In this document: piece after piece, positions 38,001-55,264 of the stretch
Position numbering within the stretch: the stretch's first letter is position 1
How the letters are laid out: the number at the start of each line of letters is the position of its first letter
Assembly (NCBI GenBank): GCA_903889525.1
Contig: CAISXT010000030.1
Coordinates: 1 to 64,000, forward strand
Source of the DNA: an uncultured Opitutia bacterium
Lineage (GTDB): Bacteria; Verrucomicrobiota; Verrucomicrobiia; Opitutales; UBA953
DNA: 64,000 nucleotides
Direction: 5' to 3'
Translations under genes and position numbers: made by a program
The notes under the pieces: model-generated
Told to the model about the DNA's origin: nothing
Database searches by the model: none
Seen by the model: only the letters and a program-made list of their open reading frames with translations

Positions 38001-38403
38001 CGGCCCCATCGGTGTCGGACAACTTGTAGATTTTCTCTTTATTGAAACTCAGATCCTGCCAGTCGATTACCCCGTCCCCATTGAAATCTTTTATGCCGCC
38101 CCGCGGCGTCCGGAATTTCCCCGGAGCCAGTTCACGGCGGAAAAAAGCGGCTTTCTCCTCCGGGGAGGTCAAAGCCACATCAAAGGGCACCCACAGCGGA
38201 TGCTCCCGAATATCGACATCGCCGGCTTTGCGTCGGCTGGTCGAACTCACATACACGTTCCCGAACTCATCGACGGTGCAAGCGGTGGGGTCGGGCACAT
38301 TGAGTACACCCGACCATTTACGAGGCGTGACCTCCGCCGCTGAAACCATCCCCACCACCACAAACAGCACAATGGTGAGTCTGGTCGTGCGCATAGGGGT
38401 CAA
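35065..38403 (-). CDS. Secreted PVC-type beta-propeller dehydrogenase with HEAT repeats and C-terminal cytochrome c domain
   Basis: Signal peptide; propeller segments GLRLGPDGRIYWSIGDKG, HGVRNIQEIAFDDFGNVLGVDND; HEAT-like middle; CxxCH in GANCTACHRVD; EF-hand-like DFNGDGVIDWQD and DTNGDGVADVQE. Confidence 0.85.
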   Translation of the reverse strand: MTPMRTTRLTIVLFVVVGMVSAAEVTPRKWSGVLNVPDPTACTVDEFGNVYVSSTSRRKAGDVDIREHPLWVPFDVALTSPEEKAAFFRRELAPGKFRTPRGGIKDFNGDGVIDWQDLSFNKEKIYKLSDTDGAGVANKLTVFAEGFNLPNAGIAAGVLYFDGWVYVTALPNLYRLKDTNGDGVADVQEIVASGFGCHIAYAGHDMHGLRLGPDGRIYWSIGDKGLNVTSKEGRKFFYPHEGAVMRCEPDGANFEVFAHGVRNIQEIAFDDFGNVLGVDNDADQPKERERMVYLLEGSDSGWRCQHQYMKLESRWMKENIWMPAGQPDQPLFITPPIANYSDGPAGFLREPGHALDGTLRGHFILDQFPKGAMDAFTLEADRDSFRMVGLRTINKGIMGIGMSWGTDGRAYFVDWMGGYPLKQKGAVWRMEVAPQIDGTSEQFLAKPYSTPVPKEELLGLLGHRDQRVRINASIRLDRLGAWDDMLRIAQAKTSPRLGRIHAIWGCGMGLRHGKIAELEPYLALLDDEDVEIRVQVLKVLSEAKVTPALQAKVVGQLAHGDLRVRTQAGITLGRIGGSVPLGAFLRDPAADLNLPWLRHGLVSGIAATNSPEQLFAIAKAKSGADAIFATLALARQKSVLLGGLFDHSNEDVVKEAARAIHDDVGIPGALGALADTLPKSPLSTLVTRRAINANLRIGTESALTRLLDWYFAQAADPALRTQALQAVLLFNQPPVLDGVDGTSKIYPERDKRAIAGVLQRYQARLLDIPVPGQRALALEAMVKYELDIPLPVLLAFADDLKASPAVRQQTLRLLGAKTVETESINRILRSAAGEGNPSTVRIEAVNQLFVRDLSGALEVMRSIINSKSAQLPEKQAIIAKLRDSTEPLAGRMVLELLDRLNARNLDAGLRFDVYLAAHDSTILTVKDAWAKYLASTAKAGLRMASPDLPFELLLDGGDAPRGREIINGHIGANCTACHRVDSDEGSEVGPKLTAIGATRSKAELLESLIEPSAKIVPGFGLETLTLKDGSSLSGNVLNDDGKTLELRTLDGKTRKIKSAIVTARSTPLSIMPPMLGTLTAAEIRDVVTYLSSLKPRVAKSPEAKSKDLKGKK

Positions 38404-39080
38404 CCGACCAGAATCAGGAAGAGTTCCTTGGGGCCGTGGGCTCCGAGGACGAGAATACGCTCAATGTCACCGGTACGACTAGGTCCGGTGATGAAAGAGA
38501 GCATGCTGGGCATATCAGTACCATGGCGGGCCTTCACCAAAGCCAAGGCAGCGCCGAGATCAGGGACCACCTGAGAAGTCTCGGCGATAACGACATGGAC
38601 GTGAGGGAGGATGGAAAGGGCGCGTCCGCCCGAACTAGTGCTCGAGACGAGGATTGAGCCGAGCTGGGCGACGATGGATTCGCAGGTGGTGATGCCGGCG
38701 TCGCATCCTTCCAGACGCTGCTTATCGAAGGAGGCATCCGCTTCCCAATTCTCGCAGGTCAGTGCGGCGGCAACAGGGCGTAGTAAGTCATGCCCATGGT
38801 AGGCGACTTTCTTCCAGTTCTTAGAAACAGAGAGCTCTGCGACGGCCTTGGCGGCGGAGGCGTGATCCGGTACGCGGATGAGTACGGCTTTCAGTTTCGC
38901 CAGCTGCTCGGCCAGGATGGTTAAGCTGTCTTCGGCGGTCTCGCCGCCGTCCGGCAGCCAAGGCTTGGCCACGGTGGAGGTCTTGCCGGGGGCACCATCG
39001 CCTTTAAGATGCGGCTTCGGGGCCTTGACCTTGAGCGCCTCGCGGATGCGGGCGAAGATATCGGAGCGGGCGTCAGACAT
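38400..39080 (-). CDS. lutC: Lactate utilization protein C (LUD domain)
   Basis: RSDIFARIREAL; CDAGITTCESIVAQLGSILVSSTSSGGRALSILPHVHVVIAETSQVV; SFITGPSRTGDIERILVLGAHGPKEL. Confidence 0.92.
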   Translation of the reverse strand: MSDARSDIFARIREALKVKAPKPHLKGDGAPGKTSTVAKPWLPDGGETAEDSLTILAEQLAKLKAVLIRVPDHASAAKAVAELSVSKNWKKVAYHGHDLLRPVAAALTCENWEADASFDKQRLEGCDAGITTCESIVAQLGSILVSSTSSGGRALSILPHVHVVIAETSQVVPDLGAALALVKARHGTDMPSMLSFITGPSRTGDIERILVLGAHGPKELFLILVG

Positions 39081-40461
39081 TCTGGTTCTTCCACTGGTCG
39101 CGGAAGGATTGAGCAGGTGCTTTGGGGAGATCGCGGGTCTTCATCCAGGCGCCCATGTAGGGAAGCGGAAGTTTCTGCAACAGCGGTAAGGTGGCGCGGA
39201 AGATGCGTCCACCGAGGGCGAAGAGCCACGGACGCTTAATCACGAAGGTGAACCCGTGATGGAAGGCCAGGTCAAAGAGCGTCGGCGACTCCTTGCTGGC
39301 GTTCCGGCGGTTGCGGAGAAGGTGGTGGTGAAGGTCGATGCGGACCGGACAGGCGTCGGTACAGGCCCCGCAGAGTGACGAAGCAGCCGAAAGATGATTC
39401 CACTGCTTGAGTCCGCGGAGGTGGGGCGTGATCACCGAACCAATGGGCCCTTGGTAGGTGGTGCCGTAGGCCAGCCCACCGATGTTCTTGAAGATCGGGC
39501 AGACGTTAAGGCAGGCGCCACAACGGATACAGTGCAGGGAATCGCGTTGCTCGGGGTCGGCCAGGATACGGGTGCGGGCGTTATCCATGAGGACGAGGTG
39601 AAATTCCTCAGGTCCATCGCATTCGCCTTTCTTCCGCGGACCAGAATAGAGCGTATTGTAACACGTCATCGGCTGACCAGCGCCAGCGGTAGCCAGCATC
39701 GGCAGGAGGACGGACAAGTCGTCGAGATGGTTCACAACCTTCTCGATACCCGAAAGGGCAATATGAATGCGGGGAAGGGCGGCGGTAAGGCGCGCATTGC
39801 CTTCGTTCTCGGTGATTGAGATTTGGCCGGTCTCGGCGACGAGGAAGTTGGCGCCAGTAATGCCGATGTCGGCGTCGATGTAAAGTTGGCGCAAATGACG
39901 ACGCGCAATCATCGTCAACTCTTCAGGGCTATCGGTCGGGGCGGTGCCGAGATGCTTCGTGAAGAGCTCGCTGATCGCCTCGCGCTTAACATGCATGCAC
40001 GGAAAAACGAAGTGATAGGGAGCCTCGCCGCGCAATTGTTGGATAAATTCACCGAGGTCGCTCTCGACCACGCCGTAGCCGGCTTTCTCCAGGGCGTCGT
40101 TCAGGTGAATCTCTTCGGTCGTCATGCATTTTGACTTCACGATGGCCTTGGCCTTTACGTCTTCGGCGATTTTCAAGATAATGACACGGGCTTCCTCGGC
40201 ATCGCGCGCCCAGTGGACTACGCCTCCGTTGCGTTCAAAGTTGCTGACAAACTTCTCGAGAACATTGGCGAGGTCATTGACGGCGCTCCACTTGGCCATC
40301 GAGGCCGCGTCCCGCGCACGTTCCCAATCGCGATAGCGGGCTTTCTGGAGGTCGCGGTTAGTGTAATAGCCGCCGAGCGCCTTGTTGATGAAAGCACGCT
40401 GGTCGCCATCCGCGGCGTTGACCGTAGCGTCTTTGAGAAAGATAGCCTTGGAGTCGTCCAT
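39073..40461 (-). CDS. lutB: Lactate utilization iron-sulfur protein B
   Basis: LUD-type N-terminal domain plus two cluster motifs CIRCGACLNVCPIF and LCGACTDACPVRIDLH. Confidence 0.94.
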   Translation of the reverse strand: MDDSKAIFLKDATVNAADGDQRAFINKALGGYYTNRDLQKARYRDWERARDAASMAKWSAVNDLANVLEKFVSNFERNGGVVHWARDAEEARVIILKIAEDVKAKAIVKSKCMTTEEIHLNDALEKAGYGVVESDLGEFIQQLRGEAPYHFVFPCMHVKREAISELFTKHLGTAPTDSPEELTMIARRHLRQLYIDADIGITGANFLVAETGQISITENEGNARLTAALPRIHIALSGIEKVVNHLDDLSVLLPMLATAGAGQPMTCYNTLYSGPRKKGECDGPEEFHLVLMDNARTRILADPEQRDSLHCIRCGACLNVCPIFKNIGGLAYGTTYQGPIGSVITPHLRGLKQWNHLSAASSLCGACTDACPVRIDLHHHLLRNRRNASKESPTLFDLAFHHGFTFVIKRPWLFALGGRIFRATLPLLQKLPLPYMGAWMKTRDLPKAPAQSFRDQWKNQNV

Positions 40462-40463
40462 GT

Positions 40464-41183
40464 TCAGGCGTCGTTCGCCAGGACTTCGGCGATATGGAGC
40501 GGGAGGATCGGTTTACCTTCGCGGGACAGCCAGCCACCGATCTGCAGGAGACAGGAGGGGTCCGAAGAGACCACGTAATCCGCCCCAGTCCGGGCGAGGG
40601 CGCCGCCTTTGACTTGGGCCATTGCGGTCGAGATCATGGGGAATTTGGCGGAGAACAGGCCACCGAAACCACAGCAAGTCTCGCCTTCGTCGGCCTCGAT
40701 GAATTCCAGTCCACGGACGGCGCGGAGCAGTTGGCGCGGTTCTTCCTTGAGGCGCAGTTCACGCATGGCGTGGCATCCATCATGGTAGGTCACCTTCTTA
40801 GCGAACTTGGCGCCGACGTCGGTGACGCCGAGTTTCTTCACGAGGAATTCCGAGAACTCGAACGTACGTGCAGCGAGGTCATCGGCTTCCGCCGCATGCG
40901 GCGTCCCCTTGAGCAGTTCGGGATAGAAGTTGCGCATCATCGCCACGCAGGAACCAGAAGGACCCACGACGACATCGGCGCCACGGAAGACGCTGAGCGC
41001 GCGGATGGCACCCTCGCGGGCAACGTCCCACTGTCCGGAGTTGAAGGAAGGCTGACCGCAACAGGTCTGCGCCGAGCGGAATTCAACATCGTGCCCCAAG
41101 CGTTTAAGCACCTTCGCGGTCGCCAGTCCGACCTTGGGGGTCAGCTGATCGACGAAGCAGGGGACAAAGAGAGAGACACGCAC
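40464..41183 (-). CDS. lutA: Lactate utilization protein A (CCG-domain Fe-S oxidoreductase)
   Basis: RVSLFVPCFVDQLTPKVGLATAKVLKRLGHDVEFRSAQTCCGQPSFNSG and TCCGFGGLFSAKFP. GTG start at 41183, 4 nt after the upstream gene. Confidence 0.94.
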   Translation of the reverse strand: MRVSLFVPCFVDQLTPKVGLATAKVLKRLGHDVEFRSAQTCCGQPSFNSGQWDVAREGAIRALSVFRGADVVVGPSGSCVAMMRNFYPELLKGTPHAAEADDLAARTFEFSEFLVKKLGVTDVGAKFAKKVTYHDGCHAMRELRLKEEPRQLLRAVRGLEFIEADEGETCCGFGGLFSAKFPMISTAMAQVKGGALARTGADYVVSSDPSCLLQIGGWLSREGKPILPLHIAEVLANDA

Positions 41184-41187
41184 GAGC

Positions 41188-43380
41188 TTAGCGCAGGAAC
41201 GCCTCGTGCAAACCACCGTCAACGGTGATGACCTGTCCGGTCGTCTTGCTTAAGCGATTAGTCACGAGAAGGAAGTAAGCTTCGGCTTGGTCAGCGGGAG
41301 TGATGGGGTTCTTCGTCAGGGTGCGATCGGCGTAGAAGCGGGAAAGCTTCGTGGTCAGTGAATCGGTCGCCTCATCATCGGTGTAGGGAATGCCGTACTT
41401 AGCAAGCGAGGCGATCACTCGGTCACGAGGGAACATCGCCGACCCTTGGACGACGGTGGCCGGAGCCACGCCGTTGACGCGAATAAGGGGCGAGAGCTCC
41501 ATCGCCATCTCGCGCACGAGGTGGTTGGCGGCAGCCTTCGAGGTGTCGTAGGCGACGGAGCCCTTCTTGGCGACGGCAGCATTGGCGCTGGTGGTCAGGA
41601 CGAGGTTACCGCGGAGACCCTGTTCCTTCCAGGTCTTGAACGCTTCGTCGGCGACGAGGTAGCTGCCGGTGACGTTAAGGGCGAAGGTAAGCGCCCACTT
41701 GTCGTCCGGAATGTGTCCAGTGGTGTCGGGCGACACGAAGATACCCGCGGTGACGCAGATGGAGTCGAAGCCGCCATAAGCGAGGGCGACCTGGTCGAGC
41801 ATCTTACGGATGGAATTACGATCCATGATGTCACCCGAAAGACCGATGGCCGGACCGCAATTGGAGAGGCCAGTGCCGGCGACGCCGATGCCCGTCCCGA
41901 GCTTGTCGGTAATTTCCTTCGCCGTGGCCTGAGCGGCCTCGACGTTCTTGTCGACGCAGACGATGTGGGCGCCTTCCTTAACCAGACGATGGGCGGTTTC
42001 CTTGCCGATGCCTGAGCCGGCGCCGACGACGATGATGATCTGGCGGGCGAGTTCCTTCTCGGCTGGCATGCGCTTCAGCTTAGCCTCTTCGAGCAGCCAA
42101 TATTCGATGTCGAACGCTTCCTGCTGGGGGAGGGCGATATACTCGTCAATCGCCTCGGCTCCACGCATGACTTCGACGGCACAGTTATAGAATTCAGCGG
42201 TGACGCGGGATTCGGACTTATCCTTGCCCCAAGCAATCATACCGAGACCGGGAATAAGGACGACCGTCGGATTCGGGTCGCGCATGGCCGGAGAGTTGGC
42301 TCGCTTGCAGGTGTTATAGTAAGCGGCGTAGTCCTTGCGGTACTGCTCGAGGGCGGCGGCAAGCTTGGTCTTCAGTGCGGCGGTGTCTTCGGACTGGGGA
42401 TTCCAGTTCACGTAGAGGGGCTTAATCTTCGTGCGGAGGAAGTGATCCGGGCAGGAGGTGCCCAGTTCAGCCAGACGAGGAGCGTCCTTCGAATTGACGA
42501 AGCGGAGAATCTTTTCGTCATCTTGGATCGTACCGATGAAACGCTTCTCACTGGAGACCTGGCCACGCAGCCAAGGTAAGATTGCGGCGAAGGCCGCGTG
42601 GCGCCTCTCCGTATCGAGGGTCTGGTAAAGGGCACCGCCAAAGGCCTTGGCGTCCCCACCCTTGGCTTGGTACTTAGCATCGATATAGGCCGAAGCCTGC
42701 TCGATCATCGCAAGCGTGAGCTCGTAGCAGGCCTTATCATCATCTGCCCAAGAAATGAACCCATGCTGGCCCATCATGATAGCCTTGATGTCGGGCTGCT
42801 TGCCGGAGATTTCCTGCATGGCGAGGCCGAGTTCGAAACCCGGGCGCATCCACTTCACGTAGGCCATCTTGCCAGCGAAAATCTGCTGGGTGAGGGCTTC
42901 GCAGTTATGGGAAGCAGCGATTGAGATAATCGCGTTCGGGTGCATGTGGTCGACATGCTTACCTGACAGGAAACTGTGCAAAGGGGTGTCGATGGAGGAT
43001 GCCCGCGGATTCAGATTGAAGGTGGTGTGATTATACATACCGACCATGTCATCTTCGGCCTGCGACTTGAGACCCTTATCGGCGCGAGCGGCGTAGGACT
43101 TCTGGAGACCGACGAGCTTATCCTGATAGAGGGAGGAAAAATTCTCGCGGTTGCTCGTCCGGAGATCGCCACCGGAACCCTTGACCCAGAGGACCTGGGT
43201 TTCGGACCCGGTCAGAGGATCTTTTTCGACAATCTTCGAGGAAGTGTTGCCACCGCCGGTATTGGTAATGCGCTGATCGGCACCGAGCTTGTTCGAGCGG
43301 TAGACCAGACGGCCGACCGGATCGAGCTTCGCGGCTTCGGCATCATTCCAGAGATGAGAGACGTACTTATAGGAGGACAT
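41188..43380 (-). CDS. Bifunctional class II aldolase/short-chain dehydrogenase (rhamnulose-1-phosphate aldolase-lactaldehyde dehydrogenase type)
   Basis: N-terminal class II aldolase region (TNTGGGNTSSK, HMHPNAIISIAAS); C-terminal SDR IIVVGAGSGIGKETAHRLVKEGAHIVCVD, YDTSKAA. Confidence 0.9.
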   Translation of the reverse strand: MSSYKYVSHLWNDAEAAKLDPVGRLVYRSNKLGADQRITNTGGGNTSSKIVEKDPLTGSETQVLWVKGSGGDLRTSNRENFSSLYQDKLVGLQKSYAARADKGLKSQAEDDMVGMYNHTTFNLNPRASSIDTPLHSFLSGKHVDHMHPNAIISIAASHNCEALTQQIFAGKMAYVKWMRPGFELGLAMQEISGKQPDIKAIMMGQHGFISWADDDKACYELTLAMIEQASAYIDAKYQAKGGDAKAFGGALYQTLDTERRHAAFAAILPWLRGQVSSEKRFIGTIQDDEKILRFVNSKDAPRLAELGTSCPDHFLRTKIKPLYVNWNPQSEDTAALKTKLAAALEQYRKDYAAYYNTCKRANSPAMRDPNPTVVLIPGLGMIAWGKDKSESRVTAEFYNCAVEVMRGAEAIDEYIALPQQEAFDIEYWLLEEAKLKRMPAEKELARQIIIVVGAGSGIGKETAHRLVKEGAHIVCVDKNVEAAQATAKEITDKLGTGIGVAGTGLSNCGPAIGLSGDIMDRNSIRKMLDQVALAYGGFDSICVTAGIFVSPDTTGHIPDDKWALTFALNVTGSYLVADEAFKTWKEQGLRGNLVLTTSANAAVAKKGSVAYDTSKAAANHLVREMAMELSPLIRVNGVAPATVVQGSAMFPRDRVIASLAKYGIPYTDDEATDSLTTKLSRFYADRTLTKNPITPADQAEAYFLLVTNRLSKTTGQVITVDGGLHEAFLR

Positions 43381-43418: not shown

Positions 43419-44888
43419 TTATGACTTCTTTAAACCATTAAACTTGGATTGGGCGGAAGCCCAGGCAGCCGTGGCGTTCGGCTTGTAAGTCACTACCTCA
43501 AAAGAGTTTCGGACAACCTTGCGCAGTTCGTCGAGGTTCTTGAGCTCCTTCATAGCGATGGCTTGGACTAAGATATTACCCGCAGCGGTGGCTTCAACTG
43601 GGCCGGCGATAACGGTTCTCCTGGTGGCATCGGCGGTCGCCTGATTGAGGAGCGCATTTCGGCAACCACCGCCGACGATGTGCAAGCGCTTCAACTTACG
43701 GCCAGTCAACTTCTCCATGCCGTCCATCTCGATGCGGTAAAGCAGGGCAAGGGATTCGAGTACGCAGCGGGCGATTTCCCCGTGGGTCTTCGGAATCGGC
43801 TGCTTGGTCTCGCGGCAGAAGGCTTGAACCTTCGCCACCATGTCGCCGCGCTTGGCAAAGCGAATATCATCCGGACGGATGAAGGAGCGTAGCGTCGGAG
43901 CCTTAAGTGCCAGCTTAACGATTTCGCCATAATCGGAGACTTCCCCTTTTTCCATCCACTCCCGGCGGCACTCCTGGAGTACCCAGAGGCCCACGAGATT
44001 CTTCAGGAAGCGAGAGGTGCCGCCGAAACCGACTTCATTGGTGTACTTGGCCTTGCGCACCGTCTCGTTCACGAGCGGCTTCGGCAGTTCAACTCCCAGG
44101 AGAGACCAGGTGCCCGAGGATAAATATGCCCAATCATCTCCCTTGGTAGCCGGCACCGCCGCGACGGCGGCAGCCGTGTCGTGGGCGCAGGTCGTGACCA
44201 CTTCCGTCTGACCGAGGCCCGTTTCTTTAGCCAAATAAGGGAGCATCTTCCCGAGCTTCACGCCGGGTGCGACTGGCTTCGGCAAGATATGCTTAGGGAT
44301 GCCCAGCTTCTTTAATACCGGCAAGGCCCACGCACGCTTGCGCGTGTCCCAACACTGACTTCCGGAAATTAGCGTCTCTTCGGCGCGAGCTTTTCCCGTA
44401 AGTAGCCAAGTAATGTAATCACCGATAAGCAGGAATTTATCAGCAAATTTCAACATCTCCGGACGATTCAGGGCATCGTCGAAAAGCTGGTAGAGCGTGT
44501 TGATGGAAATCGAAGCGATACCCGTCCCTTCAAAAATCTCTTTCTGGGAGAAACGCCGCATGGCCAGTTCGTAGGATTTGAAACTCCGTTCGTCGCGATA
44601 GGTGAACGGCAAAGAGAGCAACGGTCCGTCTCCCTTCAGGAGCACGTAGTCGACACCCCATGAATCGCAGGCCACGGACTTGATCGGCCCAAGCTTGGCA
44701 CCCTTCGCGAGGCCAATCCGGATTTCCCGAAAGATGCGGATAATGTCCCACCGGAGTGTGCCATTGGCAGTAATCGCACCATTGGAGAAACGGTGCACCT
44801 CCTTCATGCTAAACTTTCCTGACTTCAGGGTGCCGAGAATGACGCGGCCGGATTCGGCGCCGAGATCGATGGCGAGATAATGAGACAT
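43419..44888 (-). CDS. rhaB: Rhamnulokinase-like FGGY sugar kinase
   Basis: HYLAIDLGAESGRVILGTL; LRWDIIRIFREIRIGL; DSWGVDYVLL; LHIVGGGCRNALLNQATADA. Confidence 0.88.
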   Translation of the reverse strand: MSHYLAIDLGAESGRVILGTLKSGKFSMKEVHRFSNGAITANGTLRWDIIRIFREIRIGLAKGAKLGPIKSVACDSWGVDYVLLKGDGPLLSLPFTYRDERSFKSYELAMRRFSQKEIFEGTGIASISINTLYQLFDDALNRPEMLKFADKFLLIGDYITWLLTGKARAEETLISGSQCWDTRKRAWALPVLKKLGIPKHILPKPVAPGVKLGKMLPYLAKETGLGQTEVVTTCAHDTAAAVAAVPATKGDDWAYLSSGTWSLLGVELPKPLVNETVRKAKYTNEVGFGGTSRFLKNLVGLWVLQECRREWMEKGEVSDYGEIVKLALKAPTLRSFIRPDDIRFAKRGDMVAKVQAFCRETKQPIPKTHGEIARCVLESLALLYRIEMDGMEKLTGRKLKRLHIVGGGCRNALLNQATADATRRTVIAGPVEATAAGNILVQAIAMKELKNLDELRKVVRNSFEVVTYKPNATAAWASAQSKFNGLKKS

Positions 44889-44915
44889 ATGAGCAAAGAG
44901 GGGAGGGTGGACGGG

Positions 44916-45689
44916 TTATAACCCAAGCATTTTTTGGCGGTAATGCTCATCCGGGCGACCTGCAATACGTTCACACTGGGCGGCCGTAAGGAACACGGGG
45001 CCACCGAGGGCGGCCGCCCCAATGAAGATCTCCGCAGCCTTTTCCGCCATCAAGAGAGAGCCAAGGACGGCCTTAGGGGAGGGGCCCACGGCGATGATAC
45101 CGTGGTTCTGAAGGAGGATGATTTTGGGGTCACGACCCGTACGCTTCACAAAAGCCAAGACTTCCTGGCGGATGCATTGAGACAGACCCAGCCCAGGATC
45201 GGCATAAGGAACAAAGACAGACTCGATGCCGCACATGACAATCTCATCGGGACAGGCCCGTCGTTCCGCGAACTCGCGGGCCCGCGGCGAACAAAGTATC
45301 TGGTTAACCGTAATGGCATGGACGTGACCAACGCAACCCACGCCAGGGAGAGTTAATAAATAGGCGTGAAACAAAGCCTCGATGGAAGGCTTCTTGGCCT
45401 GTTCGTCGACCCGAGCGGCAAACAATGCGGTATCCACTTCGGTATCCGTCGCGCTCGTGGATTCAATCAATGGCAATAAGCGATCGAAACGGCAGGTAGT
45501 CACATCACCCGGACGCAGGCTAGCGAGATTAGACCCCGAAGCCTTGACCGCAAACGTATCGGCATCGAGCCGGACGGACGTGTTGCCTTCACCCAAGATA
45601 GCCATGCGTAGACGGTCACCCCCTAATTGATGAGAAAGTTCCAGCAGGCTTTGGATGGCTTCGACGGACATGGTCAGATTTCTCCGCAA
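44916..45689 (-). CDS. Class II aldolase/adducin family protein (fuculose-phosphate aldolase-like)
   Basis: [57 protein letters not shown]. Confidence 0.82.
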
Positions 45690-47284
45690 AGAGAGACGTT
45701 CAGGCCGAGTTCTGCAAGCGCGGCGGCCTTGGCCGTGAGGCCACGTTGGGCCGCGGAACGGGAAGGCGCATACACGACTTGAATATGATTAGAAGGGTGT
45801 CGAGCCATCATCTGATCCCGGGATATGCCGGGAAGCACAACATGCATGATCGGCCACTGGGACGTTGTGAGTTTCCAGCGTTCTTCAGTCTCCGCCTTGG
45901 GGAGTTCCACCACTTCACCGAGGCCAAGATCGGCATGCAGTTGACCATCCTTCACGAAAATACGTGACCAGACAATCCAGCCGGGCTTGGCGACTCCCTT
46001 GAGCGTGCCACCGCCGAGTCGGAAATACATTGGAGGTTGGCGCTCCGAACGGGCACCCCTGTAGCCACCGATGAAATGCTGAGCGGGCGCCGCGCCGGAA
46101 ATCAGGAAGACCCAAACATACTCATCAATAACCCGGCGACCCGATGGCCCCTGATACTGCCGACCCCAGCGCAAATCATGAAGTGTGTTCTCCGGGTCGA
46201 AGCCCAGTTGCTTCCAAAGTTGGTAGGTAATTAAGCCGTCGAGACCGGCACATTCATCGACTTCATTGAAGTGGGGGAGGGCGTCGCCTTTAAAGAGTTC
46301 CTTGCCGGTCTTAGCGTGGAAAACCGGCGGTCGCTCACGGTTGTTAAGCAAACCCTCGACCAAGTCAGAGGCCGGGGCGAGATCCTTAAGACCCTGCTGG
46401 TATTGAATTCCGATCGAGGCACAGCCGAATTCATCCGCCAGACGCACGGCAGCGATATACATCTTCAGTTGCTCCAATGTCTGTCGGCGAGTGAGTTCGG
46501 TTTTTTCGCTCTTTCCCCAAGCAAAGGTGAGACCCTTGCGAAGAAGCCAGCGCAAGGCAGCCGTAGCTTCGGTCTGCTTTACCGTGAGCATCGTTGCAAA
46601 TAGACTTGATTGACTCAACCGCTCCTTAAAAACACCCGTAGGATGCAAAAGCTCATCCGGGATGATGGCATTGTACATGCCCATGCATCCTTCATCAAAG
46701 ACCCCCATGATGGCCTTGCGGCGACGGAAATCCTGAGCGAAGCGGCGGCCGAGAAGGGCGTCCTTAGATAAAGACGGCTGGAGCTTGCGAACGTGCGACA
46801 CGGCATGAGTCACCAGCCCCGACTTGAGCCACTTACGAAGACCGACGAGGAATTTTTTGTCGGTGAAATCCTCGCTCCAAAGCGTGGAGAAGTTGACGCC
46901 CGCCTTAAGCAAGGACCCGTTAAGATTAAGCATGCCGACGAGTCCGGGCCAAGTCCCTGACCAGTTGGCGACCGTGAGGATCGGGCCACGATGTGAAAGC
47001 AAACCAGGCAAGACATGATGGGAGTATTGCCAAACCGCTTCCGCGACCACCAAGGGGGCATCCGTGGGAATGCCGCGAAAGACCTCGATGCCGTATTTCT
47101 GCGAATCGATAAAACCATGCCCGACCTCGGCACGAAAACCATGGGCGCGCTTCACCTTCCAGCCTTCACGACGTAAAGCCTGGGCGAGCAGGGCCTCCAT
47201 GGCCAATTGAGCGGCTTCACACTTTTGATTGGCCGAGGCGCGCAAGTCGCCGTTCGCCACAAGATAGACGGTTCGGTTCTTCAC
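45674..47284 (-). CDS. L-fucose isomerase-like protein
   Basis: [69 protein letters not shown]; overall FucI/AraA-like layout and operon context. Confidence 0.72.
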
Positions 47285-47302
47285 AGCAAAACAGACCTAC
47301 GC

Positions 47303-48082
47303 TCAGTGAGCCGTCAGAACCCGTTCCGGAGGCAGATTCACTTTAGCCTTCTGCACGGCCGCCGCATCCGCATCGGTGACCAAAAAGAGCGAGGCCACAT
47401 CACGATGGACGAGGCAAGGCCCCCCGCGACCGAGCTTGACCTTATTCATGCAAATCAAGACTTCGGCGGAGCGGCGGATCACCTCGCGTTGCTGATTGGA
47501 AATATCACGCTGGGAATTCCAAAGACCACCGTCATTAATACCTTCGGCACCGAGCAGGGCAGTATCGTAATTCCAGCGGGCAACTTCTTCCAGCGTACGA
47601 TCTCCAGCCACCATCGCATGACGCGTAAGGAAAAGTCCACCGGGGATATACACCTCGACCCCGGGGAGACAGGAAATCAACTGAGCCGTCGGGAGACAGG
47701 TCGTGATAATCCGTAAATCCGGGATGCCCGCGGAGGCGATCGCTTCCGCGGCGAAGAATATCGTGGAGCCCGAATCCAGGTAAACCGTCATGCCCGCCGT
47801 AACCCGTGATGCCGCCTTGATGCCAATGCGTCGCTTGGCTTCAGCGTCTTCGATTTTGCGATCATCGAGCGGCGGGAAGTTGCGATTGAAGTCAGAGAGT
47901 GCGCCGCCATGGGTGCGCGTGATGCGTCGCTGATTCTCCAGCTCCGTCAAATCACGACGGGCCGTGGCCTCCGAGACGTTGAACTGCTTACAGATCTCCA
48001 AGACGGGGACGTATCCGACCTTAGAGAGTAATTTGGCAATCGCCTCACGGCGGGCTTCGATGATGTGTCGGGCGACTTTCAT
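47303..48082 (-). CDS. DeoR/GlpR family transcriptional regulator
   Basis: ARREAIAKLLSKVGYVPVLEICKQFNVSEATARRDLTELENQRRITRTHGGAL, then DeoRC sensor domain. Confidence 0.92.
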   Translation of the reverse strand: MKVARHIIEARREAIAKLLSKVGYVPVLEICKQFNVSEATARRDLTELENQRRITRTHGGALSDFNRNFPPLDDRKIEDAEAKRRIGIKAASRVTAGMTVYLDSGSTIFFAAEAIASAGIPDLRIITTCLPTAQLISCLPGVEVYIPGGLFLTRHAMVAGDRTLEEVARWNYDTALLGAEGINDGGLWNSQRDISNQQREVIRRSAEVLICMNKVKLGRGGPCLVHRDVASLFLVTDADAAAVQKAKVNLPPERVLTAH

Positions 48083-48298: not shown

Positions 48299-49186
48299 GT
48301 GATGAACAACCCCATATGGTCATATTACGTGCGTTTGTACGTTTTGGTGATTTTGACCCTTTTCCTTTCCGGCTGCGCGACGAGCACAAATCCCAGCAAA
48401 CCCGCCGCGCCTGCAACCCAGGTTAGCAAATTCACGGGACTTCCCATTGAACAAGGCCCGAGCTCCCTGGGGGCCGAACCCCGGAAGGAAAAGGTCACCC
48501 ACTTGATTCTGCATTATACCGCGGGCACCCTACCCTCATCCCTGGATATCCTCCAAGGCAAGGATCACGCCCACAAAGTTGGCATTCATTACGTGGTCAC
48601 GGATGAAGCCACCCCGAGGGTCATCCGGATGGTCCCTGAAAACATGTCCGCTTTCCACGCCGGCAAAAGCGGATGGGCGGAACTGAACGCCCTCAATCAA
48701 CGATCGGTAGGAATTGAAATCATCAATCTCGACGGAAACGTTCATCCGTATTCCGCCGCTCAGGCAGAAGTCCTGTTCACGCTCTGCGCCGACATCATTC
48801 GCCGCCATGACATCAAGCCCGTGAACGTCCTCGGTCATTCAGATATCGCCGTCGGACGTAAAATCGATCCGGGCACGCTCTTTCCGTGGGCTAAATTAGC
48901 CGCCCTGGGTATCGGGGCGTGGCCGCTACCCGACGAAGTGAAAGCGAACTTGGCGAAAAGCAAAACTCCGAACGCCGTGGATGTCAGAAAACTTCTAGAG
49001 TTATACGGCTACCATCTTGAAGCTGGTGAACCCGGCCTGAAACTCGGCCTCGAAGCCTTTCAGCGTCATTTCCGTTCCGCCAAGATCACGGGCGTGGCTG
49101 ACTCCGAAACCGTCGCTATCCTCCGCGCCCTGGTTCGGCGCTATCGATCGGAAGAACTCCGCCGGGCCCGCCTCCCCAAAGTCTAA
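48299..49186 (+). CDS. N-acetylmuramoyl-L-alanine amidase (AmiD-like lipoprotein)
   Basis: Lipobox FLSGCATS; HLILHYTAGTLPSSLDIL, VGIHYVVTDEA, VGIEIINLDG, VLGHSDIAVGRKIDPGTLFPW; C-terminal peptidoglycan-binding-like region. Confidence 0.9.
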   Translation: MMNNPIWSYYVRLYVLVILTLFLSGCATSTNPSKPAAPATQVSKFTGLPIEQGPSSLGAEPRKEKVTHLILHYTAGTLPSSLDILQGKDHAHKVGIHYVVTDEATPRVIRMVPENMSAFHAGKSGWAELNALNQRSVGIEIINLDGNVHPYSAAQAEVLFTLCADIIRRHDIKPVNVLGHSDIAVGRKIDPGTLFPWAKLAALGIGAWPLPDEVKANLAKSKTPNAVDVRKLLELYGYHLEAGEPGLKLGLEAFQRHFRSAKITGVADSETVAILRALVRRYRSEELRRARLPKV

Positions 49187-49723
49187 TCAGGCGCCCTCCT
49201 GTGCCACGGTGACAATGATATCCTGGTGCCGGTGGTGAAAAATCGTGAGCGGGACGTTGGCTTTAGGATGTTTTTCGCCCAGCACACCCCCGCGGGCTTT
49301 ATGCGACGCCTCCATCTCCGTCCAGCGACGGGTGAATTGGATTGAAGCATCGACATCCATCAAGTCATCGGCAGCGGTCCCGGATAGATATTGCTCCGTC
49401 AATTCACGGGCCTCGGGGATGAAACGAATTCTCTCAGCGTCGACCCCGATACGGCCAGTGCGTGACCATGCCACCCAACCATCGCACCCATCGTAGGAAA
49501 ACGAAACCCGCCAAGGGGCGCCGAGCAATTCCGGACCAAGTGCAGATTCGATAATCTCCACCCCGCCGCCATGCCAACCCCTAGCCACGGTCAGGACGGC
49601 TCTGCGCAATAGCAGCTTCGAGCCTGCGCCGCGCCCGACGGACGGGACCAGCATGAGCCAGATATTATCTGTCGGCTTAGCCTTCAAGATAGAGGCCTCC
49701 TCTGGTGACAGCACCTTCATCAT
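49187..49723 (-). CDS. Sfp-type 4'-phosphopantetheinyl transferase
   Basis: VSFSYDGCDGWVAWSRTGRIGVDAERIRFIPEA and WTEMEASHKARGGVL; overlaps the NRPS by 4 nt. Confidence 0.82.
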   Translation of the reverse strand: MMKVLSPEEASILKAKPTDNIWLMLVPSVGRGAGSKLLLRRAVLTVARGWHGGGVEIIESALGPELLGAPWRVSFSYDGCDGWVAWSRTGRIGVDAERIRFIPEARELTEQYLSGTAADDLMDVDASIQFTRRWTEMEASHKARGGVLGEKHPKANVPLTIFHHRHQDIIVTVAQEGA

Positions 49724-52700
49724 CCGCGTGCAGCCGGGGCAGAGGGAGTCCCTTCCCAGCGGGTGTTTTCAGGAATATGCTCACCCTTCGCGACAAGGGT
49801 CAGCGGCCCAAGGTGAGCCCCATCGCCAACCGAAGCATCATAAAGCACGGTTGTGCGGACGCCAATCGTACAGCGAGTTCCAATCCGGACCAAACCGATA
49901 CGCATCACCCGATCCTCGAATAAATGTGTCTGCGGGCCGCTGTGATCATTCAGTTCAGCTTCGTCGCCGATACTCACGCAGTCGAATTCCGTAAGGTCCG
50001 TCGAATTCATCCAAACACCCTTGCCCACCTTGACGCCCAATAGCCGGAAAGCCCATGGCAACATCGGCGTACCCTTGAGCAAATTAAGGAGTGCCGGTAC
50101 AGCCAAAGATTCATGTAACGTGGTCACTGCCTCGCTGACCCAGACAAAAAGCGTCCACATCGGGGCTAACCTCGGACGATACTTACCGATAAGAATCCAC
50201 TTGGCGACGAGCACTAGGCCAAAGGAAATCAGTCCGTAAAGCATGCCGGCAATCGTCAAGGCTAGGCAAAACCCGGACCAATTCTCCTCCTCCAGGTAGG
50301 GCATGGTTTCGAAGACGGTCACATAGCCCGCCGCAATGACAAACGCTAGCGGGACAACAATCCGCAATCCTTCGATGAAGGCTCGAGCCCAACGGCGACT
50401 CCGCGATGGGCGAAAGGTCAGCACCGGATCCTGTTCCGCGATGACTTCTCGCGCTGGCAACAACATGGGGGGCGAACCCATCCATGTCTGCCCAGGACGC
50501 ATCTGTTCATTTTGAGGCGCGGAGGATTGCACACCCAACAAGACATCATCAGGAAACTGCGCCCCATCGGGCACGTACGCTCCATTCCCCACAAAGGAAC
50601 GGGCGCCGATGCGCGTCCGACTCAAGGTCATCCAGCCGTCCTGCTGACCTTCGTCCCCAAGCATGGCCCCATCCGCGATAAACGACTCATCACCCAACTC
50701 TAATAGTTCAGGAATAATCCCTTCCGCTGTCGAAACCTCCGCATCACGACCGACCTTTGTTCCCATGATGCGTAACCAGGAGGCGACATAAACCGAAGCA
50801 TACAGACCATGCAGGACCTGCAGGGATGCATCCAAGACAGCCGAAAGCTGCCACTTCCAGAAATATTCACGGCCCTCAATGGGGAAGCGGCCAGCCTGCT
50901 GGCGGGGCAGACATCGGCGAAGTAGGCCGGCCAATCCGACCGTAATGAGTAACAAGATAGCCGTAGCAGGAATCGCGAGCAGGAAAAATATTGGTAAGGC
51001 TAGCCACCAATGCTCGAAGTTTTCGAACACGTCTAACCAGCGCGTATCGAGTGCATCAATAACGACGAAACTTGGGAATACGGGAATGTAGAACAGCACC
51101 GCGACCAGCGCCGCACCGATAACGAACCCAAGGATACGCAGACCTGCGGACCAAACTCCCAGCCTCGGCGGGGGCGTAAGCCTTGCGGCCGAACCTGTCT
51201 TGCGTGCAGGGGCCCCAGCCCAGATTTCGCCGGCGGGGATAGATACCCCTTCGGCCAAGGCCGATTGACCACCAAGTTTTCCGCCGGCACCGATTTGGGT
51301 GTCATTCTCTAACACGGAATACGAGTCGACGGATGCGCCATCTCCAATCGCCACGCGACCAATGATCAGGCGGCCACCCTCGACCCGCGCGTTCTCAATG
51401 TTGACGAACGTACCCAAGCAGACCCCATCGCCGACAACGAGTAGCTCGGGGACGGAGACGGTGACCGAATTAATCGTACAATGTCGGCCGACTTTGGCTC
51501 CTTGCATCCGGAGATGGAAAGATTTCAAAGGCGTACCAGAAATCAGATGTACCGCCGGAATCTCGGCGAGGCGAACGCCCAACCACCAGCGGAAATAGGT
51601 GAGACCCCAGAGCGGATAGCTGCCGGGTCGCAGTCGCCCCACCAGGATCATGCGTAAGAAAATACCAAGGGGGAAAGAGAGTGCCAACGCGGCCAGATAG
51701 GCAGCCAGCGCCATCGCGATTGCGAAAATGGCACTATCCTCCGGCTCACCCGTCAGCCAGTGATAGGCAAAGAATGGTGAAAGCCATTGCAGCATCTGGA
51801 GCAGTACAAGGAACGGCAGACAACTGGCCTGAGCAAAGCCGCAAGCAAAACGTCGCCATAACGGCGCCGACTCATGATGGGGTGCGGCCTCAGCCGTTCG
51901 ACCAGCCTCCGCTAGCTCACGCATGGCCAGGGCAATGGCCTGCAGCGAACGACCTCGATAGATATGCTGGACGCCGACAGCCGCATAGCGGGCATCGCGA
52001 CGAAGCCTCGTCACCAGCCGAGCAGCGAGTAACGAATGCCCACCGAGGTCGGCGAAGAAATCGGCCGATGGCGACAGGTGGCGACCAGGAAGTAATTCGC
52101 ACAAGATGACGCGCAAGGCGGCCTCATGCTCATCGCGAGGCGGAGGCAACGCTTCGGAGCTAGCAACATTCACCGCCAATTCACGACGGCGCAACGCGCC
52201 AAGGTCCGTCTTCCCAGAACTCAGCCGCGGCATCTCCTCAATGAACACGAATCTTGCTGGCACCATGTAAGTTGGCAGTCGCGCCATCAGTGCCGCGCGC
52301 AGCGATTCTGCATTCGCCGCCCCCGAAGACAAAACCACGAAGGCGACGATTTCATCGCTCCCGGCGAGCGGCCGGACGACGGCGGCGGCCGTACCGACCC
52401 CAGGCTGATCACTCAAGGCAGCGGTGATTTCGTCGAGTTCGATGCGAAAACCTCTCAACTTGATTTGATTATCGACTCGGCCCAAACAGCGAACTTCCCC
52501 GTCGGGGCCGACACTTCCAAGATCTCCCGTGAGGTAGGCTAGCTGGCCGGCTATTTCCACGAATCGGGCTGCGGTCAGCTCGGGCCGGCCAAGATAACCA
52601 CCCGAAACGCCAGGCCCAAATACAACCAGTTCACCCGTTTCACCAGCAGCCAATAACCGACGCTCGGGGGTGCAGACCCCGATACCATAATTCGGAAGCG

Positions 52701-53658
52701 GGATACCGATATTAACCGACTTGCCGGGCTGAAGAATGGCGATGGTGGCTGTCACCGTCGTCTCGGTTGGCCCATAGGTATTCAAAACCCGGTACCAATG
52801 TCCCGTCAACCTCGTCGCCAGAGAGTCCGGACAGGCTTCACCTCCCAGATTCAGCAAGCGAAGGCTTGGGGGGAAATTCGTGATCAACGCAGCCAACGTC
52901 GGCACGGCATGCAATACCGTTATTTTCTGTTTCAACAGCGCATCCTGAAGCGCCTCCGGGTCCGCCACGATTTCGGCGGGTGCCACCCAGAGACTCGCCC
53001 CGGCGAAAAAGGAGATCCAAATCTCTTCCAGTGACATATCAAACGCGACGGAAAAACCCTGGTAGACGCGATCGGCTGCCGTGACCCCCAGGACGTCATT
53101 CTCACTACGAATGAAATGGCAGACATTACGCTGGGTGATCGCGATGCCCTTCGGTTCACCCGTGGAACCCGAAGTGTAGATTGCATACGCAATATCCTCG
53201 GGTGCCGCACGTCGTAGTTCTACCTGTACATTCTCCCCCTCCAGCTCCGCCAGAACCAGCGGCTCCAGACCGCGAGCCCGGATGCCTTGCGCGCCTTCAT
53301 GGTCGGTTACGACGTAACGCGCACGGGCATCACGCATGCACGTCGCAAGGCGATCAAGCGGCACAGCGGCGTCAAAAGGCAACCAAGCGGCACCCGACAA
53401 GGCGATACCGACCTGGCCGAGAATCAAAGCATGGCCACGCGGCAACCATAGTCCCACGCATTCACCGGGACCACATCCGCGCGAAGCCAAAGCATGAGCG
53501 ACCTTACGGGAGCGCAACCAAAGTTCACGGTAGGAAAGACGTGTCGAACCATCCTCGATGGCTAAGGCGTCCGGCTGACGTCGCACCGTATCTGCAAGCA
53601 AGTCAGCCAACGTCTCATGGCGGAGTAAATCAGGTCTATGGGCACCCTGCAGAATCAT
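49720..53658 (-). CDS. Pls/PosA-like membrane non-ribosomal peptide synthetase (A-T-TM with three hexapeptide-repeat domains)
   Basis: A domain YAIYTSGSTGEPKGI, FDMSLEEIW, NTYGPTETTVTA, YLTGDLG, GRVDNQIKLRGFRIELDEI; T domain DFFADLGGHSLLAARLV; multiple TM helices alternating with three left-handed beta-helix segments (e.g. MQGAKVGRHCTINSV, IMGTKVGRDAEVS, LLGVKVGKGVWMN). Confidence 0.9.
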   Translation of the reverse strand: MILQGAHRPDLLRHETLADLLADTVRRQPDALAIEDGSTRLSYRELWLRSRKVAHALASRGCGPGECVGLWLPRGHALILGQVGIALSGAAWLPFDAAVPLDRLATCMRDARARYVVTDHEGAQGIRARGLEPLVLAELEGENVQVELRRAAPEDIAYAIYTSGSTGEPKGIAITQRNVCHFIRSENDVLGVTAADRVYQGFSVAFDMSLEEIWISFFAGASLWVAPAEIVADPEALQDALLKQKITVLHAVPTLAALITNFPPSLRLLNLGGEACPDSLATRLTGHWYRVLNTYGPTETTVTATIAILQPGKSVNIGIPLPNYGIGVCTPERRLLAAGETGELVVFGPGVSGGYLGRPELTAARFVEIAGQLAYLTGDLGSVGPDGEVRCLGRVDNQIKLRGFRIELDEITAALSDQPGVGTAAAVVRPLAGSDEIVAFVVLSSGAANAESLRAALMARLPTYMVPARFVFIEEMPRLSSGKTDLGALRRRELAVNVASSEALPPPRDEHEAALRVILCELLPGRHLSPSADFFADLGGHSLLAARLVTRLRRDARYAAVGVQHIYRGRSLQAIALAMRELAEAGRTAEAAPHHESAPLWRRFACGFAQASCLPFLVLLQMLQWLSPFFAYHWLTGEPEDSAIFAIAMALAAYLAALALSFPLGIFLRMILVGRLRPGSYPLWGLTYFRWWLGVRLAEIPAVHLISGTPLKSFHLRMQGAKVGRHCTINSVTVSVPELLVVGDGVCLGTFVNIENARVEGGRLIIGRVAIGDGASVDSYSVLENDTQIGAGGKLGGQSALAEGVSIPAGEIWAGAPARKTGSAARLTPPPRLGVWSAGLRILGFVIGAALVAVLFYIPVFPSFVVIDALDTRWLDVFENFEHWWLALPIFFLLAIPATAILLLITVGLAGLLRRCLPRQQAGRFPIEGREYFWKWQLSAVLDASLQVLHGLYASVYVASWLRIMGTKVGRDAEVSTAEGIIPELLELGDESFIADGAMLGDEGQQDGWMTLSRTRIGARSFVGNGAYVPDGAQFPDDVLLGVQSSAPQNEQMRPGQTWMGSPPMLLPAREVIAEQDPVLTFRPSRSRRWARAFIEGLRIVVPLAFVIAAGYVTVFETMPYLEEENWSGFCLALTIAGMLYGLISFGLVLVAKWILIGKYRPRLAPMWTLFVWVSEAVTTLHESLAVPALLNLLKGTPMLPWAFRLLGVKVGKGVWMNSTDLTEFDCVSIGDEAELNDHSGPQTHLFEDRVMRIGLVRIGTRCTIGVRTTVLYDASVGDGAHLGPLTLVAKGEHIPENTRWEGTPSAPAARG

Positions 53659-53677: not shown

Positions 53678-55264
53678 TCAGCGACGGAGTCGCAATAGTC
53701 GGAGTAATTTATCCCGATAAGAAAGGACTAAATCTTTCTCCGGGTAACCCCAGACGCAGAGAATCCATGCATAGAGCGCGGCGGAAACCGATGCGGTCAG
53801 GAGCATGGCCAAGAACAGGCTAAGCTTGGGGTGAAGCCATACCCCATTGAAGTCATGCAAGATGGCAAAACCCTGATAAGCCACAAGACCCAACGCCGTC
53901 GATCCGGCCAACACCTTCAGCGTGGGGATTAGAAGGTTTTCACCCAAGAAAGCGGGCGCACTACGTTGCAGCAAGCGGCGAAGTACTAGATACTGCCAGA
54001 CGGTGGAAATCCCATTCGCGACCGCGAGCCCCTCGATACCCCAGCCCATCCAGACGGCAATCAGCGAGGCCACGAGATTGACCCCGAAAGCATGGACGGC
54101 CGCCCCGAAAGTGGCCTTGGTGTTACCCGCCACATTGAGCGCACGCGTCACCATTGAGATCATGGCGTAAAACGGCATGACGAAGGCAAATAACACCAAG
54201 ATGATTCGGGTGTGTCCGCAATCAACCTCTGTGAATTTTTGAAATTTAAAAAGCAGCTGAACAATCGGACCCGAAAGGACAATGAGTCCCACAGCCGCAG
54301 CGATGTTTACCGCGATAATCAGCCGCATACCACGGGCATAGTTCCGGGAAAGCGCCGCTTCGTCTCGAGCCGCGAAAGCGGTCGCCATCGCCGGGAACAT
54401 CACCGTCGCGATCGAAGCCGAAAATAGACCAATGGGAAGTTCGACAATCCGATTGGCGATGTAGTAATAAGTCAGGGACGCATCCGAGACCCCGAAAGCC
54501 AGAAAACGTGAGACGAGGAAGTTTATCTGCTGAATCCCTGCGCCAAGAGCCGCGGGTATAAAAGCGGCCAACAGAACGCCCCAGGCGGCTTTATCGGCAA
54601 TCGCAGGACGAGGGCGCCACCCTTCTTGGCGCAGACCCCAAAGAGGGATTAATAACTGTAAAACGCCTCCGGCAATCGCCCCGGCGCAAAGCCAGCGCGC
54701 CTTGCCCATGTCACCGGACGCAAAGTTTTCCCCCATGACCGCCAGGGCGAAAATCATGCATAGGTTGAGCATCGCTGAGGCGAACTCTGCCAAACCGAAG
54801 CGCCCGCTCAGATTAACGGCGGAGGTAAAAAGCGCCGCCAGACAGATTAACGGCATGTACGGCATGCAATAGGCCGTCAGTTCCGCTGCCCGACTCGCCT
54901 TAGAATAATCCATCGCGAGATAAGACCACGCAATGGCGATACCCATGCCGAGTAAGGTGATCCCCATCATCCAAGGGAGCACCCGGCGGATGACATAATT
55001 GAGGAAAGCAAACGCGGAGGCCTTCCCTTCCCTCGCCGTCTTATCGGCGAGCACTGGCACAATCGCCACCGTGAGGGCACCTTCACCGAGTAAACGGCGG
55101 AAGAGATTCGGGATTTGAAAAGCGAAGAGAAAAGCGGCTCCGACCGGACCAGCGCCGAAGACGGCGGCAGTGAGCTGATCACGCACCAGCCCGAGCACTC
55201 GCGAAACCATCGTCCAGGAGGCGGTCTTCGCCATATCCCCGTACTGGCGCGTCTGCTCGCTCAT
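53678..55264 (-). CDS. murJ: Lipid II flippase MurJ
   Basis: TASWTMVSRVLGLVRDQLTAAVFGAGPVGAAFLFAFQIPNLFRRLLGEGALTVAIVPVL. Confidence 0.95.
   Translation of the reverse strand: MSEQTRQYGDMAKTASWTMVSRVLGLVRDQLTAAVFGAGPVGAAFLFAFQIPNLFRRLLGEGALTVAIVPVLADKTAREGKASAFAFLNYVIRRVLPWMMGITLLGMGIAIAWSYLAMDYSKASRAAELTAYCMPYMPLICLAALFTSAVNLSGRFGLAEFASAMLNLCMIFALAVMGENFASGDMGKARWLCAGAIAGGVLQLLIPLWGLRQEGWRPRPAIADKAAWGVLLAAFIPAALGAGIQQINFLVSRFLAFGVSDASLTYYYIANRIVELPIGLFSASIATVMFPAMATAFAARDEAALSRNYARGMRLIIAVNIAAAVGLIVLSGPIVQLLFKFQKFTEVDCGHTRIILVLFAFVMPFYAMISMVTRALNVAGNTKATFGAAVHAFGVNLVASLIAVWMGWGIEGLAVANGISTVWQYLVLRRLLQRSAPAFLGENLLIPTLKVLAGSTALGLVAYQGFAILHDFNGVWLHPKLSLFLAMLLTASVSAALYAWILCVWGYPEKDLVLSYRDKLLRLLRLRR

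Follow-up and report, generated by a model that had tools for sequence, protein, structure and literature searches.

Which product, if any, is made by the two overlapping genes at positions 49187 to 53658 of a 64,000-nucleotide stretch (the window; contig CAISXT010000030.1) from an uncultured Opitutia bacterium? The initial annotation, made from the letters alone, saw a Pls/PosA-like single-module membrane non-ribosomal peptide synthetase (NRPS) with a dedicated 4'-phosphopantetheinyl transferase (PPTase), in a host resembling the Planctomycetota-Verrucomicrobiota-Chlamydiota group; the host indeed belongs to the Verrucomicrobiota. Our analysis indicates that this two-gene cassette very probably encodes a cationic homo-polyamino-acid synthetase of the PosA type together with its activating PPTase. 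The specific reading, a PosA-type delta-poly-L-ornithine synthetase with its dedicated PPTase, is given a probability of about 0.72.

A membrane synthetase of the Pls/PosA family

The larger gene and its predicted parts are as follows.

49720..53658, minus strand: Pls/PosA-family single-module membrane NRPS, predicted delta-poly-L-ornithine synthetase, 1312 amino acids (aa)
52192..53613, minus strand: adenylation (A) domain, aa ~16-489, substrate code DMEHNGTVTK
51919..52131, minus strand: carrier (thiolation, T) domain, aa ~510-580, LGGHS, phosphopantetheine serine S542
49744..51831, minus strand: TIGR02353 terminal domain, aa 610-1305, three membrane helix pairs and three left-handed beta-helices
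51190..51465, minus strand: left-handed beta-helix 1, aa ~732-823 (AlphaFold2 model)
50449..50790, minus strand: left-handed beta-helix 2, aa ~957-1070 (AlphaFold2 model)
49753..50064, minus strand: left-handed beta-helix 3, aa ~1199-1302, with the QTHLFED motif inside (AlphaFold2 model)
49924..49926, minus strand: codon of H1245, the putative catalytic histidine, invariant in 44 family members

A Pfam search of the synthetase matched AMP-binding, AMP-binding_C, PP-binding and Hexapep and found no condensation or thioesterase domain, which, together with the LGGHS motif, bears out the single A domain and GGHS carrier described initially. The A-domain core motifs are present, and an alignment that looked for loss of essential A- and T-domain residues found both K483 (the A10 lysine) and S542 (the serine of the carrier) intact here and invariant across 44 relatives. 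The hidden Markov model search proposed at the outset placed the NCBIfam terminal domain TIGR02353 ('Pls/PosA family NRPS'; antiSMASH class NAPAA) at aa 610-1305; the score of 698.8 bits, for a curated cut-off of 423.1 bits, is far beyond chance. Hydropathy reveals three pairs of membrane segments in this terminal domain, and in an AlphaFold2 model covering the final 718 aa (23 homologues, pLDDT 89.3, pTM 0.90) each of three repeats consists of a helix pair and then a left-handed beta-helix, as the suggested alternation of membrane segments and hexapeptide domains implied. No solved structure matched the whole C-terminal domain by sequence or fold searches; matches were limited to individual beta-helix units, with acyltransferases and gamma carbonic anhydrases. 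The gene is under strong purifying selection (ratio of non-synonymous to synonymous substitution, dN/dS, 0.06-0.11), which supports a working gene, and its reading frame is open in 12 species. From these sequence features, membership of the Pls/PosA family is close to certain.

A 239-aa protein from the same order (L024, G157:C1:3226861-3227163) is similar to TIGR02353 only in the profile's final 101 positions and is possibly a stand-alone relative of the third beta-helix.

The substrate pocket and the tree point to ornithine

Among solved structures of single A domains, PosA matches best (8G95-8G98, 431 bits), and the A domain of Pls (7WEW) reaches 256 bits. Entry 8G95 shows the PosA A domain from Acinetobacter baumannii; the enzyme synthesises delta-poly-L-ornithine in vitro, in chains of 7-12 units (PMC10522769). 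For alignment we used the A. baumannii copy in the plasmid record CP040041.1 (locus L149), which reproduces the published residue numbers. The substrate codes DMEHNGTVTK (here) and DMEHNGTVSK (PosA) agree at nine of ten positions, and since the one change is conservative, L-ornithine is predicted rather than an uncharacterised monomer. In the PosA pocket, Met218 sets the chain length and Glu221 binds the delta-amine, supported by T304 and S313 (PMC10522769). Four of the five ornithine-pocket residues (D217, M218, E221, T304 and S313) are identical here, S313 being replaced by a threonine that keeps the hydroxyl, and the equivalents of D217, E221, H260 and N280 are unchanged. At the chain-length position, both our synthetase and PosA carry Met, the sampled Pls Ala, and enzymes of the diaminobutyrate/diaminopropionate (Dab/Dap) type (PDAP/PDAB) Phe. 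An ornithine carbamoyltransferase is encoded in the same genome, so ornithine is likely to be a metabolite of this bacterium.

The phylogeny with Pls, PosA and their relatives that had been called for was built from 44 full-length proteins (quick search, LG+G4, Shimodaira-Hasegawa-like approximate likelihood-ratio test (SH-aLRT) supports, without bootstrap). The 12 full-length sequences from the source genus group together in a single clade (SH-aLRT 99.9); its sister comprises PosA and its Janthinobacterium and Rugamonas relatives; the 15-row union is supported at SH-aLRT 100. Within the family, this position groups the synthetase with PosA, apart from Pls and the Dab/Dap enzymes.

Comparison with individual relatives is consistent with this placement. 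A. baumannii PosA is the nearest relative that has been characterised, and the likeness extends over the full-length architecture, with 48% whole-protein identity (47% over 100% of the query in a separate search). Streptomyces Pls shares the TIGR02353 domain and the order A-T-(membrane pair + beta-helix) x3, whereas it sits on a deeper, separate branch, with 34% identity for the one sampled, which has the code DAESIGTVVK and Ala at the chain-length position. The PosA-like synthetases of Rugamonas brunnea (L039) and Janthinobacterium (L026) have 50% identity and the PosA code, and in R. brunnea a PPTase gene lies directly downstream; unlike ours, they are betaproteobacterial and uncharacterised, and the Janthinobacterium locus lacks a nearby PPTase. 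Based on the pocket and the tree, L-ornithine is most likely the monomer. The polyamino acid foreseen by the initial annotation is thus retained as a prediction, while its uncharacterised nature is not, as both lines favour the known delta-poly-L-ornithine.

It is conceivable, if rather unlikely, that the same family mechanism here uses another monomer (D-ornithine, L-lysine, diaminobutyrate or another cationic amino acid) and yields a different or new homopolymer. The S313T change is common to all 12 genus members, with T304S in addition in one (G137), and PosA itself takes D-ornithine at about half the efficiency of L-ornithine (PMC10522769). Against this stand the PosA-like Met at the chain-length position, the unchanged D217, E221, H260 and N280 equivalents, the sister relationship to PosA, and the lack of a precursor gene in the cassette, whereas the streptomycete Dab locus has an aminotransferase.

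Elsewhere in the tree, three sequences (L162 from the Verrucomicrobiota genome G304, L036 from Novosphingobium and L040 from the Gemmatimonadetes) have the code DSECYGGVTK in common and form one long-branched clade; this is the code of the arginine-activating Bdellovibrionales enzyme (PMC10522769). Unusual codes whose substrates are not predictable occur in L073 (Caulobacter, DIECNGTVTK), L048 (Geodermatophilus, DFEYNGTVTK) and L161 (G153, DMETNGTITK).

A divergent PPTase that accompanies the synthetase

49187..49723, minus strand: divergent Sfp-type 4'-phosphopantetheinyl transferase, 178 aa (D95, E97, W134, E138, K142)

The two open reading frames overlap by 4 nt (ATGA), as first noted. The PPTase scores 23.6 bits with Pfam ACPS, just under the cut-off of 25; Sfp is the best PDB match for a profile of eight congener PPTases, and the AlphaFold2 model (pLDDT 83.6) has the two-domain Sfp fold, with 1QR0 as best Foldseek match (E 5.6e-07). 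D95, E97, E138 and K142 correspond to Sfp D107, E109, E151 and K155, and W134 also belongs to the Sfp catalytic set. The protein thus resembles Sfp-type PPTases in its fold and its GVDAE and WxxxEaxxK motifs, and differs from them in its short length and fast evolution, in a Met at the position of K150, and in that the E97 equivalent is missing in most congeners. Its dN/dS (0.17-0.6) exceeds that of the synthetase and lies below neutrality in the pairs compared.

Among 55 species genomes of the genus, 14 have the TIGR02353 domain; these 14 all have the PPTase as well, and the remaining 41 lack it. The naive probability of this match, 2e-13, makes the association look stronger than it is, since the genomes are related, but on a species tree of 31 species parsimony counts seven state changes. 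The only other PPTase in the source genome is of the AcpS type (contig C6). This exact co-occurrence, along with the Sfp fold, supports a PPTase dedicated to the synthetase, as initially proposed.

Similar pairings occur in unrelated bacteria: the R. brunnea PPTase (L039:11016-11645), a PPTase just upstream of the synthetase in a proteobacterial metagenome-assembled genome (MAG; L028:6181-6795), and a PPTase fused to the synthetase C-terminus in a Holophagaceae MAG (L030, residues 1421-1513, PF01648 E 1e-15). The strict pairing in the genus, taken with these neighbours and this fusion, suggests that some family members need their own PPTase. We found no description of a dedicated PPTase for the Pls/PosA family in the open-licence papers that were searched. 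The natural Holophagaceae fusion (L030:2876-7486) carries a Pls-like code, DAESIGTVIK.

Two insertion sites and a patchy distribution

53678..55264, minus strand: murJ, upstream flank outside the cassette, 19-nt gap to the synthetase
48299..49186, plus strand: N-acetylmuramoyl-L-alanine amidase, convergent downstream flank outside the cassette

The pair lies between murJ and the convergent amidase gene in eight species (G000, G002, G017, G020, G336, G341, G342 and G345). Where this junction is free of the cassette, murJ and the amidase gene overlap by ~11 nt (G001, G010, G335, G324, G011, G332, G327, G004 and G137) or, in two species nested in a clade of carriers (G009, L169; G021, L170), lie ~32 nt apart. 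In five species (G004, G007, G013, G137 and G326) the pair is found at a second site, in every case upstream of a convergent DUF1501 gene; the G330 contig is too short for assignment. The two insertion sites correspond to two clades of the synthetase tree. Carriers and non-carriers are interleaved on the species tree, which implies loss, exchange between species of the genus, or a combination of the two, and G021, inside a clade of carriers, has apparently lost it.

A functional link between the cassette and murJ or the amidase gene was considered and rejected, as the two genes adjoin without the cassette in sister species. Recent acquisition of foreign DNA was likewise rejected on composition: GC content overall and at third codon positions (GC3) matches the host genes, so any transfer was old or from a similar donor. 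Promoter and terminator scans gave results at or below chance.

A further possibility, slightly less probable than a mere change of monomer, is that the verrucomicrobial clade, with its S313T change and a fast PPTase locked to one carrier, represents a distinct mobile two-gene system that makes an undescribed homopolymer (D-ornithine or mixed, for example) and is inserted precisely, as a unit, between two convergent genes.

A model for polymer formation

We propose that the A domain would select L-ornithine and form ornithyl-AMP, that the PPTase would turn S542 of the carrier into its holo form, and that ornithine would then be loaded on the carrier as a thioester. The membrane domain with its three beta-helices would join monomers through delta-amino isopeptide bonds, and short cationic chains would be released or exported at the membrane. 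Substrate, linkage, chain length and export are inferred here; PosA chains have about ten residues (PMC10522769). Judged from the encoded proteins, the loading half (A domain, carrier and PPTase) is complete and is joined to a conserved membrane polymerisation domain. In the third beta-helix, Q1243, H1245, E1248 and D1249 are kept almost without exception in the 44 proteins. A histidine is the general base in hexapeptide acyltransferases such as LacA and CysE, and by analogy H1245 may be the acyl-transfer base; the listed matches to solved enzymes cover mainly the last half of beta-helix 3 and do not align it with their catalytic histidine. The product would most likely serve to antagonise competing or eukaryotic microbes, or to modify the surface.

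Several observations weigh against a functional delta-poly-L-ornithine pathway of this kind. The pocket threonine occupies the position of PosA Ser313, where the substitution S313A costs PosA a factor of 183 (PMC10522769). The Sfp K150 equivalent is Met in our PPTase and His or Leu in congeners, and the enzyme evolves fast (48% identity to its G002 counterpart, against 87% for the synthetase), so it might be only weakly active. A. baumannii posA is a lone gene without a neighbouring PPTase, and thus the pairing is not a rule across the family.

The hexapeptide beta-helices of the terminal domain are related to acyltransferases acting on sugars and small molecules, and the cassette adjoins cell-wall genes in the eight species above. 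One might therefore imagine that ornithine is loaded and that the membrane domain moves one or a few residues to a lipid or glycan acceptor in the envelope, with no free polymer. We consider this improbable, given that sister species have the same neighbourhood but no cassette, so that it is not a functional context, and that characterised Pls/PosA-family members make free homopolymers (PMC10522769). Least probable of all is a decaying locus with an inactive synthetase or PPTase, which the rapid divergence and sub-threshold Pfam score of the PPTase, the patchy presence and the apparent loss in G021 might suggest, since the synthetase is constrained, open in frame and catalytically intact, and the PPTase keeps its fold and its D/E/K catalytic residues.

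Implications and neighbouring genes

The family and the likely delta-poly-L-ornithine product are already known, and what is added here is the host phylum, the cassette and the strict PPTase pairing. PosA-type synthetases are extended to the Verrucomicrobiota, a phylum in which the TIGR02353 domain is rare (5 of 289 sampled genomes, 3 of them over the cut-off). A minimal, self-contained pair of synthetase and activator should move easily into a laboratory host, and the need of some family members for their own PPTase would be a practical point when orphan members are expressed. The empty sites provide natural presence/absence pairs for finding the role of the polymer.

Elsewhere in the window, positions 43419-48082 hold an operon for deoxy-sugar catabolism (FGGY kinase, class II aldolase, fucose-isomerase-like protein and DeoR regulator), whose order is conserved across the genus, the isomerase-like gene being missing there in some congeners (G011, G017, G341 and G342). 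Positions 35065-43380 contain genes resembling those for lactate utilisation (LUD domain, LutB-like), together with one for a fused aldolase/short-chain dehydrogenase and one for a DUF7133/HEAT/cytochrome c protein.

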